A stretch of 33,774 nt of DNA. Source: Cyanobacteriota bacterium (GTDB lineage: Bacteria > Cyanobacteriota > Cyanobacteriia > Cyanobacteriales > Microcoleaceae). Below, piece by piece: positions 8,983 through 11,316 of this stretch. The DNA lies in NCBI GenBank assembly GCA_025362325.1, contig JANYGO010000354.1, positions 1-33,774 on the forward strand, read 5' to 3'. The position numbers were made by a program, and so were the translations under genes. The notes below the pieces were generated by a model, which saw nothing but the letters and a program-made list of their open reading frames with translations, did no database searches and was not told where the DNA came from. Position 1 is the first letter of the stretch; each line of letters begins with the position of its first letter.

Positions 8983-10512
8983 ATGACAGCAATAACTCTC
9001 GAAAATAAATTTGAGTACAAACCCCTATACAAACCGAATCAATTAATTTGTGGCACCGGGCAAACAGCGATTGTCAGCGGCTGGACGGTCAAAAGTGCGG
9101 TGGGCAAAAACTTACAACCCAACGAATTTGCTGTCATCGGACAACTGTACTCCCCTACTCGCGGCATCAACTTCTTAATTAGAAACTTGCTGTGCAATCC
9201 CCACGTCCGCTTTTTAGTAATTCTCAACGCTACCAAAGAAGACCGCAACTCCGGCGCAGCAGAGTGCTTGATCGACTTTTTTCGCAACGGCTTTGAAGCT
9301 GGCAAAAGCGATACAGGCAGAGATTGCTGGCTGATTAAATCTGCAATATTTGGCTATATCGATATTGAAATAACCGCCGAAGCCTTAGAACTATTGCGTC
9401 ATTCCATCCAATGGCAAGAAGCTAAATCAATTTCAGAAACACTGACTTTTGTCAAGGATTTTTCGGAAAAAGAATCTGCTGAACCTTGGGGAGAACTCGT
9501 AACTTTTCCGATCGTCGAAATCGTGCCAACTGTACTCCCCGGCCAGAAATACGGACACAGAATCGAAGGCAAAACGATCGCCGAAACTTGGGTCAAAATC
9601 ATCCACCGAATTAAAACCACCGGAACACTGCGGCCGACTGGTTACGATGGACAGTGGCAAGAATTAATCGATTTGATGGCAGTGATTACCGATGAACCAC
9701 CGGAGTTCTATTTTCCCGAACCGAATTACTTACCAATAGACCGTTCTTTCCTCGAACAGTACAAACCGCAAATGCTGGAAGATTCCCCCTACAATGAAGG
9801 GATTAAATATACCTATGCACAACGAATGCGGTCGTGGTTTGGACGCGATCAAATCGAAGAAGTTATCGCCAAACTAATTAAAGAAATTGACGCGGCAAGT
9901 GCTGTAATTAGTTTGTGGGATGCTGGCGGAAATATTAACAGAAGACCCGATGGTTCCTCCGACCACCAACACAGCGGCAGTCCTTGTTTAAATCATATTT
10001 GGGTGCGAGTGGTGGACGCAGAACTATCGCTAACTGCAACTCTCCGCAGCAATGATATGTTTGCGGCTTGGCCGGCAAATGCCATGGGTTTGCGGGCTTT
10101 GCAGCAACACATTCGCGACGAAATTGCGAGGCGTTCCGATTACAATTTGACAATGGGCCCGCTGATCACGCTGTCGCAATCGGCTCACTTGTATGATGAT
10201 ACCTTTGAAAATGCCGATCGACTAATTCAAACCCAATATGCTAAAATCTGCCAAGAGCGAGACTTTTTCGATGCAGCGGGCAATTTTTTAGTTGAAGTAG
10301 CGGACGATCGGATAGTTGTCACGCAAACCACCCCCGGCAGCGGCGAAGCTGTCACCTGTTATTCGGGAAAAAACCCTCTCAAGTTAGTGCGAGAAATTTG
10401 TGCGGCTTCTCCGGCCATCCAACCGGATCATATTGGTTATTTGGGAATAGAATTGCAGAAGGCGGCCGAGTGCTTGAAAACCAGCAACCAATACATTCAG
10501 GATAGAAGATGA
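8983..10512 (+). CDS. Three-part protein: MtrA-like domain + thymidylate synthase-like domain + DUF4346-like tail
   Basis: Residues about 15-165 resemble MtrA, subunit A of methanogen tetrahydromethanopterin S-methyltransferase: VIGQLYSPTRGINFLIRNLL then NPHVRFLVIL and a RNGFEAG block. Residues about 190-420 follow ThyA: KYTYAQRMRSWF.DQI, then catalytic-type Cys335 in SPCLNHIW, RSND (355-358), PAN (Asn366) and HLY (His402, Tyr404). Their spacing fits E. coli C146, R166, D169, N177, H207 and Y209, apart from a 6-residue insertion before the His. Asn366 matches the residue that favours dUMP over dCMP. The last 80 residues (DAAGNFLVEV to YLGIELQKAAECL) resemble DUF4346. The Arg pair that binds dUMP phosphate across the dimer (E. 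coli R126/R127) appears as Ala-Ser. Folate-dependent dTMP synthesis is likely but not certain. The stop overlaps the next start (ATGA), an overlap typical of translational coupling to the deaminase. Confidence 0.8.
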   Translation: MTAITLENKFEYKPLYKPNQLICGTGQTAIVSGWTVKSAVGKNLQPNEFAVIGQLYSPTRGINFLIRNLLCNPHVRFLVILNATKEDRNSGAAECLIDFFRNGFEAGKSDTGRDCWLIKSAIFGYIDIEITAEALELLRHSIQWQEAKSISETLTFVKDFSEKESAEPWGELVTFPIVEIVPTVLPGQKYGHRIEGKTIAETWVKIIHRIKTTGTLRPTGYDGQWQELIDLMAVITDEPPEFYFPEPNYLPIDRSFLEQYKPQMLEDSPYNEGIKYTYAQRMRSWFGRDQIEEVIAKLIKEIDAASAVISLWDAGGNINRRPDGSSDHQHSGSPCLNHIWVRVVDAELSLTATLRSNDMFAAWPANAMGLRALQQHIRDEIARRSDYNLTMGPLITLSQSAHLYDDTFENADRLIQTQYAKICQERDFFDAAGNFLVEVADDRIVVTQTTPGSGEAVTCYSGKNPLKLVREICAASPAIQPDHIGYLGIELQKAAECLKTSNQYIQDRR

Positions 10513-11060
10513 ACTTAGAAGAAGAGAGACCGACTTGGGACGAATACTTTTTAATGCTGGCAAAATTAGCCGCTACTCGATCGACTTGTCTGGCTTTTCC
10601 GGTCGGCGCGGTAATCACCAAAAACAGGCAAGTTTTAGCCACGGGTTATAACGGTTCGCCGTCAGGTTCGGTACACTGCACGGCTCAAGGCTTCTGCTAT
10701 CCTGGTTTGAGCAGTTGCGACGCTAGCAAAATTTTGCCGTCGCGGGCCGTTCACGCTGAAGCAAATGCGATCGCCACCGCTGCAAAACACGGCATATCTA
10801 CCGCTGGATCTAGCATTTACGTAACATTAGAACCGTGCATTTATTGTTTGAAATTACTCATTTCCGCTGGCATTCGCGAAGTATTTTATGAAACTGTTTT
10901 TAACAGCGGAGAAAAAGCTGCTTTGAGAGATTCTTTTATCGCTGAAGGTATTGTCGAGTTCAAACAAATTAAGCTATCTGAAAGTACAGCAAACAGAGCG
11001 GCTTTATTTCTGCTGAATCCTACATCTGTGCCTAAAGACGATCGACCATTCGGTTCGTAG
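10509..11060 (+). CDS. dCMP deaminase (cytidine/deoxycytidylate deaminase family)
   Basis: This zinc enzyme should convert dCMP to dUMP, the substrate of thymidylate synthase. The 183-residue protein starts with the typical RPTWDEYFLMLAKLAATRS, then FPVGAVITKN and ATGYNGSPSG. Zinc ligands are His82 in HAEANA, with Glu84 as proton shuttle, and Cys110/Cys113 in EPCIYC. HCTAQGFCY and the Cys-rich loop before HAE fit dCMP deaminases of the ComEB type. Its ATG overlaps the stop of the ThyA-like gene by 4 bases, so the two are almost certainly an operon with linked pyrimidine functions. The stop TAG lies inside the first copy of the 68-bp palindrome array, so the last few residues (PFGS) may be repeat-derived. 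Confidence 0.92.
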   Translation: MNLEEERPTWDEYFLMLAKLAATRSTCLAFPVGAVITKNRQVLATGYNGSPSGSVHCTAQGFCYPGLSSCDASKILPSRAVHAEANAIATAAKHGISTAGSSIYVTLEPCIYCLKLLISAGIREVFYETVFNSGEKAALRDSFIAEGIVEFKQIKLSESTANRAALFLLNPTSVPKDDRPFGS

Positions 11061-11308
11061 TGAGGACTTTAGTCCTCAGAAATCAGGACTAAAGTCCTCA
11101 CTACAAACATTCTCTCTTGGGTTCGTAGTGAGGACTTTAGTCCGCAAAAATCAGGACTAAAGTCCTCACTATAAACATTCTCTCTTGGGTTCGTAGTGAG
11201 GACTTTAGTCCGCAAAAATCAGGACTAAAGTCCTCACTACAAACATTCTCTCTTGGGTTCGTAGTGAGGACTTTAGTCCGCAAAAATCAGGACTAAAGTC
11301 CTCACTAC
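11057..11308. repeat. Four-copy, 68-bp palindrome array
   Basis: Four copies of a 48-bp palindrome start at 11057, 11125, 11193 and 11261, exactly 68 bp apart. Each has 19-bp arms, GTAGTGAGGACTTTAGTCC and GGACTAAAGTCCTCACTAC, around a 10-base centre. Copies 2-4 share CGCAAAAATCA in the centre while copy 1 differs (TCAGAAATCA); copy 2 has one base change at its end (CTAT). The 20-bp linker AAACATTCTCTCTTGGGTTC is identical in all three gaps. The array fills the space between two convergent genes and provides the stop of the deaminase. It looks like a small non-autonomous hairpin element (REP/MITE-like) amplified in tandem, and might act as a two-way terminator. Confidence 0.95.
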
Positions 11309-11316
11309 AAACCAGC

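Follow-up and report, generated by a model that had tools for sequence, protein, structure and literature searches.

The window, the whole 33,774-nucleotide stretch of DNA analysed here (contig JANYGO010000354.1 of assembly GCA_025362325.1, from a Cyanobacteriota bacterium of the Microcoleaceae; contig C199 of a source genome 94.9% complete), encodes a 509-residue protein that very probably serves as the thymidylate synthase of the cell. It belongs to the ThyA superfamily, has a core of methanogen type and replaces ThyX. The protein joins an MtrA-like domain, a ThyA core and a DUF4346 tail, and its stop codon overlaps the start of a dCMP deaminase gene (common ATGA at 10509-10512). Both the three-part fusion and the overlap, read from the sequence in an initial annotation, are borne out by the open reading frames (ORFs), by Pfam and NCBIfam matches and by the recovery of the whole architecture in 39 genomes. 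The features of the locus are as follows.

8983-10512, + strand: fusion gene MtrA-like / methanogen-type ThyA / DUF4346, 509 residues (Pfam, NCBIfam and genome searches)
9031-9477, + strand: N-terminal MtrA-like domain spanning about residues 17-165, with the MtrA cobalt ligands lost
9550-10254, + strand: ThyA core of methanogen type, residues 190-424, without the canonical C-terminal segment
9985-9987, + strand: codon of the putative catalytic Cys335, opposite Cys146 in the alignment with canonical ThyA
10270-10503, + strand: DUF4346 tail, residues 430-507, a domain that forms the C-terminus of the archaeal TIGR00284 dihydropteroate synthase-like protein
10509-11060, + strand: dCMP deaminase, 183 residues (dCMP_cyt_deam_1)

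The distribution of the fusion in cyanobacterial genomes is complementary to that of ThyX (PF02511), an enzyme whose fold is unrelated to that of ThyA. Among 292 genomes, the whole fusion occurs in 39 (the search lists 40, of which G137, a 35-residue DUF4346 scrap, was left out) and ThyX in 249. Only one genome (G127) carries both, 38 carry the fusion only, 248 ThyX only and five neither; within the window's order the corresponding counts are one, 37, 44 and one. The fusion is the sole recognised thymidylate synthase in 38 of its 39 carriers, none of these 38 having a ThyX match. A stronger form of this evidence is found within genera, since g1, g3, g7 and g17 each contain both fusion genomes and ThyX genomes, with one enzyme per genome. 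In the source genome, where a search for thyX had been proposed in the initial annotation, a single copy of the fusion and no ThyX at E <= 0.001 were found, and a hidden ThyX was rejected on these grounds. Because exclusion is near perfect and holds at one enzyme per genome inside genera, the fusion replaces ThyX, both occupying the same genomic role in a mutually exclusive manner. As would be expected from an intein or another insertion, 18 of the 45 genomes of the order that bear ThyX show a match split in two. ThyA as such is no novelty among cyanobacteria, since PMC5954106 tabulates it in 8 of 31 genomes.

The fusion is not a product of chance, since 39 cyanobacterial genomes encode it with the architecture complete, at 55-94% identity to the window protein. 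Across these copies 137 residues are invariant, and Pfam recognises DUF4346 and ThyA in 39 of 39 and MtrA, at E <= 0.1, in 29 of 39. In an alignment of 100 rows (39 cellular and 61 viral, down to 44-47% identity) every row has the N-terminal and ThyA parts and 99 have the tail, a part being counted when at least 70% of its length is there. In the window protein, DUF4346 (PF14251; 6.6e-19, 68.9 bits against a cut-off of 29.6) and Thymidylat_synt (PF00303; 1e-10, 41.7 bits against 24.3) score over the Pfam cut-offs and MtrA (PF04208; 0.016, 15.3 bits against 25) under it. The best ThyA model in NCBIfam is the methanogen TIGR03283 (2.5e-32), with the protein below its equivalog cut-off (112 bits against 174.55). 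The MtrA-named model NF002128 also matches (9e-12), in part via the tail and far under its equivalog cut-off (44.8 bits against 568), with ThyA intervening. In all, PF00303 matches 42 genomes: besides the 39 with the fusion, these are G035 with a canonical ThyA, G129 with a separate ORF, and G204, where the match is weak and broken. The G129 ORF, in a genome that also carries ThyX, is a ThyA-like protein of another type (369 residues, L183:1572-2681, Pfam ThyA 1.3e-11).

Structure prediction, also put forward as a check in the initial annotation, gave a thymidylate synthase fold. The AlphaFold (AF2) model was built from the 100 rows (pLDDT 89.6, pTM 0.83) and was used instead of an earlier, poor model from 39 rows (pLDDT 72). 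Foldseek returned 403 PDB matches at E <= 0.001, the best being the CMP hydroxymethylase MilA (3.8e-11). Among the 50 matches listed there are thymidylate synthases, some of them joined to dihydrofolate reductase (DHFR), CMP/dCMP hydroxymethylases and two other dCMP-binding enzymes, and the single-domain thymidylate synthase chains reach TMt values of 0.46-0.65. Against a viral structure library, TMq did not exceed 0.36 among the 50 matches listed, with no full-length match.

The Cys, Arg-Ser-x-Asp, Asn and His-x-Tyr motifs singled out in the initial annotation correspond to Cys335, Arg355-Ser-x-Asp358, Asn366 and His402-x-Tyr404. All 58 fusions compared (39 cellular, 19 viral) and all 33 methanogen ThyA have the equivalents of C146, R166, S167, D169, N177, H207 and Y209, and the Cys-Arg (20) and Arg-Asn (11) spacings of the window protein equal those of E. 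coli ThyA. In canonical ThyA, Asn177 selects uracil, Asp169 meets the pterin, and Arg126 and Arg127 of the partner subunit bind phosphate. The fusion is thereby like canonical ThyA (PF00303, matched by all 39 cellular copies) in fold and catalytic residues, and unlike it in two extra domains, in the loss of Arg126, in a C-terminal segment, the canonical lid, missing from the ThyA alignment and in the scarcity of FolA in its genomes. The columns for R21, E58, W80 and W83 were misaligned and were excluded from this reading. One of the reference sequences, the thyA of Pseudomonas phage PaMx74 (L360), is annotated as a thymidylate synthase and carries Asp at the uracil-selecting Asn position, being perhaps a dCMP enzyme.

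Several observations weigh against the reading of the fusion as the thymidylate synthase of its hosts. The Fisher P of the co-occurrence with ThyX (5e-41) ignores shared ancestry. A genome without a recognised thymidylate synthase is not impossible, as G016, G069, G173 and G245 have none of any kind. The top PDB match of the predicted fold is a hydroxymethylase of the same superfamily and not a thymidylate synthase, none of the 58 fusions keeps Arg126 and 35 of them lack Arg127 as well (the window protein has lost both), and a strong FolA match in only 7 of 39 carriers is odd for a dihydrofolate-producing enzyme. A sensitive fusion profile (A2) detected no fusion in the four genomes mentioned or in nine ThyX-only genomes. 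One of the four, G245, is 99% complete and a genus-mate of eight fusion genomes; it encodes FolA at L187:1007-1513, and no fusion, ThyX or ThyA was found in it.

Some of these features would suit an enzyme of ThyA fold that hydroxymethylates or hypermodifies pyrimidine nucleotides without making dTMP: T4 dCMP hydroxymethylase follows close behind MilA among the fold matches, Arg126 is gone, and viral contigs carry the fusion. Such a reaction is nevertheless very unlikely, given that 38 of the 39 cellular carriers have no ThyX match, that Pfam ThyA finds nothing other than the fusion in all 39, and that the uracil-selecting Asn366 is kept in 58 of 58. Taken with the exclusion of ThyX, the fold and the catalytic residues indicate that the ThyA-like part noted in the initial annotation is a ThyA-fold protein and almost certainly the host's thymidylate synthase.

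The ThyA core is most akin to the ThyA of methanogens. In a profile comparison it aligns with methanogen ThyA at 28% identity over 206 columns (hhalign E 1.7e-36), and the motifs YTYGxRLR, PC, RSxD and HIY are common to the core and to TIGR03283, with which L316 scores 289 bits. A phylogeny of the ThyA part, likewise suggested at the outset, was built from 97 rows, the viral ones being 19 of the 61 distinct ORFs of at least 440 residues; its bootstrap had not settled. All fusions fall into a single clade (100/99) in this tree, and a 99/93 branch separates them and methanogen ThyA from six rows that are canonical or odd, some of these being very long branches. The methanogen enzyme differs from the fusion in being standalone and in keeping the phosphate-binding Arg126 and Arg127 (both in 33 of 33). 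The fusion profile matches 99 of 100 Methanobacteriota genomes, the best at 1.1e-39, and no whole fusion was found in the 100; among the matches listed, ThyA lies in frames of 209-290 residues and DUF4346 in separate frames of 512-573 residues. An archaeal parent of the whole fusion within Methanobacteriota was rejected on this basis, as each of the matches listed is either a lone ThyA or a DUF4346 that belongs to another, long protein.

The N-terminal part is best described as MtrA-like, and not as MtrA. In the AlphaFold model its strands and helices alternate in an order that fits the Rossmann-like fold of MtrA; no MtrA stands among the 50 listed Foldseek matches, in a search made with the whole model. 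The likeness to the MtrA of methanogens (PF04208, TIGR01111, NF002126) is distant, extends over about 100 residues and includes an invariant Asn-Pro, kept in 51 of 51 fusions (alignments of the two outer domains used 51 of the 100 rows). NCBIfam MtrA models match 50 and 47 of these 51 domains, and hhalign places the N-terminus with MtrA at 4.9e-5 (probability 68%). The N-terminal profile matches ORFs in only 20 of 100 methanogen genomes (1e-4 to 1e-2), and three of these ORFs, on inspection, are MtrA-like with GHITG. The domain is unlike methanogen MtrA in that the cobalt ligands are lost and that the window protein falls under the Pfam cut-off. Kinship with the archaeal dihydropteroate synthase (DHPS)-like protein was considered and rejected, with no hhalign match.

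According to PMC4915002, the cobalt ligand of MtrA is His84, which forms a hydrogen bond with Glu54, and homologues in some bacteria mostly retain His84; from these the fusion differs, since His84 and Glu54 are each absent from 51 of 51 fusions aligned with 76 MtrA, no His occurs within four columns, and the dyad is present in 76 of 76 MtrA. A corrinoid methyl-donor role is unlikely because of this loss, and the domain was rejected as a corrinoid carrier. The suggestion in the initial annotation that the MtrA part donates a one-carbon unit fails as far as the known corrinoid chemistry of MtrA is concerned. A methyl-corrinoid borne on this domain and methylating dUMP directly would account for the missing FolA and would agree with the NCBIfam matches and with the joining of MtrA to DUF4346 elsewhere (NF002128), yet it is highly improbable in view of the replaced ligands and of a PDB profile search in which MtrA reaches no better than E = 0.005 and an engineered repeat protein ranks ahead of it (1.1e-5).

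The tail resembles the C-terminus of 12 archaeal DHPS-like proteins (hhalign 4.7e-19, 38% identity), and two scanned Methanobacteriota DUF4346 frames score over the cut-off of TIGR00284, the dihydropteroate synthase-like model. The motif H..YLG.EL...A...Y.QD is found in the tail, in TIGR00284, where DUF4346 follows a DHPS-like domain, and in cyanobacterial proteins that consist of DUF4346 alone, the hhalign comparison with the latter being based on one sequence. The Pfam name of DUF4346 implies pterin binding. A PDB search gave 4wjl as sole match (E 0.53), with no solved relative. DUF4346 matches occur in 138 of the 292 cyanobacterial genomes, that is, in 138 of the 139 sampled genomes of the class (it is missing in G195) and in none of 153 others, mostly as standalone frames of about 125-190 residues, alongside ThyX or the fusion alike.

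The joining of MtrA to DUF4346 is an architecture that already exists elsewhere. NF002128 is a 390-position model named MtrA; the stretch 104-278 of the model is matched by a true MtrA (L364) and about 268-369 by two TIGR00284 tails, and the window's N-terminus and tail, scanned apart, match the model at 2.6e-7 and 1.3e-4. Unlike the fusion, NF002128 has no ThyA between its two domains, and the fusion looks like this pair with ThyA in between.

If residue roles are taken over from canonical ThyA, Cys335 would add to C6 of dUMP, Asn366 would select uracil, His402 and Tyr404 would hold the deoxyribose, and Arg355 and Ser356 the phosphate. Asp358 would be in contact with the pterin part of a methylene-tetrahydropterin; this cofactor is most likely methylene-tetrahydrofolate in cyanobacteria. 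The product would be dTMP. DUF4346, located at the place of the canonical C-terminal lid, probably helps to hold the pterin, and the MtrA-like domain, probably no corrinoid carrier now, may bind a nucleotide, a pterin or a partner, or stabilise the assembly. Where the genome has it, the neighbouring dCMP deaminase would supply dUMP.

Relatives of the fusion are also encoded by 88 contigs of IMG/VR, of which 80 were kept (44-69% identical, some cut by contig ends), yielding the 61 distinct ORFs of at least 440 residues. Checked copies lie beside phage-type genes encoding a terminase (L114), a DNA polymerase and a primase (L173), a RecJ-like exonuclease (L107) and a ribonucleotide reductase (L120), the L173 copy being also near a thymidylate kinase; a large ORF by L147 matched nothing. 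PHROGs assigned four copies to thymidylate synthase families only. Cellular and viral fusions are intermixed in the tree, with seven label changes, and because at least five of these are forced by well-supported branches, it is probable that the gene has passed between cells and viruses on several occasions. Of 50,697 isolated-phage records, not one covers 80% of the fusion protein, and plasmid records gave no match, so that a public phage or plasmid record with the whole fusion was rejected. PMC10343443 reports a Pfam thymidylate synthase on Planktothrix phage contigs and gives no architecture for it.

The fate of dihydrofolate is less clear. ThyA produces dihydrofolate and ThyX does not, as set out in PMC9012536; the same paper states that labelling and biochemical work on methanogen ThyA lags, and for this reason the archaeal relatives do not settle the dihydrofolate route. 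Cyanobacteria described so far use ThyX, with two studied strains lacking FolA, according to PMC4531292. Strong FolA matches (PF00186, E < 1e-20) occur in 7 of 39 fusion genomes versus 4 of 248 ThyX-only genomes, and in 10 of 39 versus 9 of 248 when weak matches are included; the weak match of the source genome is a RibD_C-type (DHFR-like) protein. This enrichment speaks for the ordinary dihydrofolate route, and the absence of strong matches in 32 of 39 leaves room for another. It is quite possible, if just short of probable, that the enzyme behaves as an ordinary ThyA, releasing dihydrofolate that is re-reduced by FolA or by an unrelated reductase (RibD_C-like or short-chain), with the extra domains only regulating or stabilising it. 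The enrichment, the RibD_C-type protein and the retained catalytic residues agree with this, but the 32 genomes without a strong FolA do not, and the retention of the extra domains in 100 and 99 of 100 rows, down to the lowest identities, points to a direct role for them. A more speculative possibility, to which we lend limited credence, is a self-contained synthase whose three parts, resembling proteins of archaeal tetrahydromethanopterin metabolism, would keep or restore the pterin on the enzyme or deliver the methyl without net dihydrofolate, free of FolA; viruses may then have spread this replacement of ThyX through cyanobacteria.

In keeping with the initial annotation, which knew of no account of it, no description of the MtrA-like/ThyA/DUF4346 fusion was found in the open-access literature searched; the fusion is regarded here as a variant of ThyA. 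Thymidylate synthesis is an essential step of DNA making. The fusion swaps with ThyX inside genera and is present on many uncultivated viral contigs, and the host genomes mostly lack a strong FolA match. Two questions become testable, namely the function of DUF4346, a domain of all but one of the sampled genomes of the class and also of archaea, and how an enzyme of ThyA type can work where no dihydrofolate reductase is recognised.

The second ORF of the locus matches PF00383 over cut-off (3.6e-25, 88.3 bits against 25), and its translation contains the zinc motifs HAE and PCxxC. A dCMP deaminase makes dUMP and ThyA makes dTMP, and the initial annotation had seen in the two genes a dCMP-to-dTMP module. 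In part this holds, as a deaminase lies on the same strand within 3 kb of the fusion in 16 of 39 genomes and adjoins it in 4 of 80 viral loci. Genome-wide, however, a deaminase gene turns up in no more than 22 of the 39 fusion genomes, none being found at E < 1e-50 in the other 17, and 12 of the 40 ThyX-only genomes searched, out of 44 in the order, have one as well. The gene is often a neighbour of the fusion but not an obligatory one, and was rejected as an obligate partner. Other neighbours within about 4 kb of the 39 fusions are DCD-like genes (13, three on the opposite strand), thymidylate kinase (10) and deoxyribosyltransferase-like genes (9), and at least one of these or the deaminase is near the fusion in 25 of 39; neighbours were sought by tblastn with seed proteins and named on example proteins, with some regions cut by contig ends and no random-position control. 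In three phage records inspected, an ordinary thyA stands beside a dCMP deaminase. Since the pairing is partial genome-wide and phage thyA is likewise paired, the two genes form a normal pathway neighbourhood, and it is doubtful that they make up one dedicated dCMP-to-dTMP pathway, in spite of the ATGA overlap.

Directly 3' of the deaminase gene, at 11052-11313 of the window, there are repeats spaced 68 bases, four of which are near-perfect inverted repeats with arms of 23-24 nucleotides.

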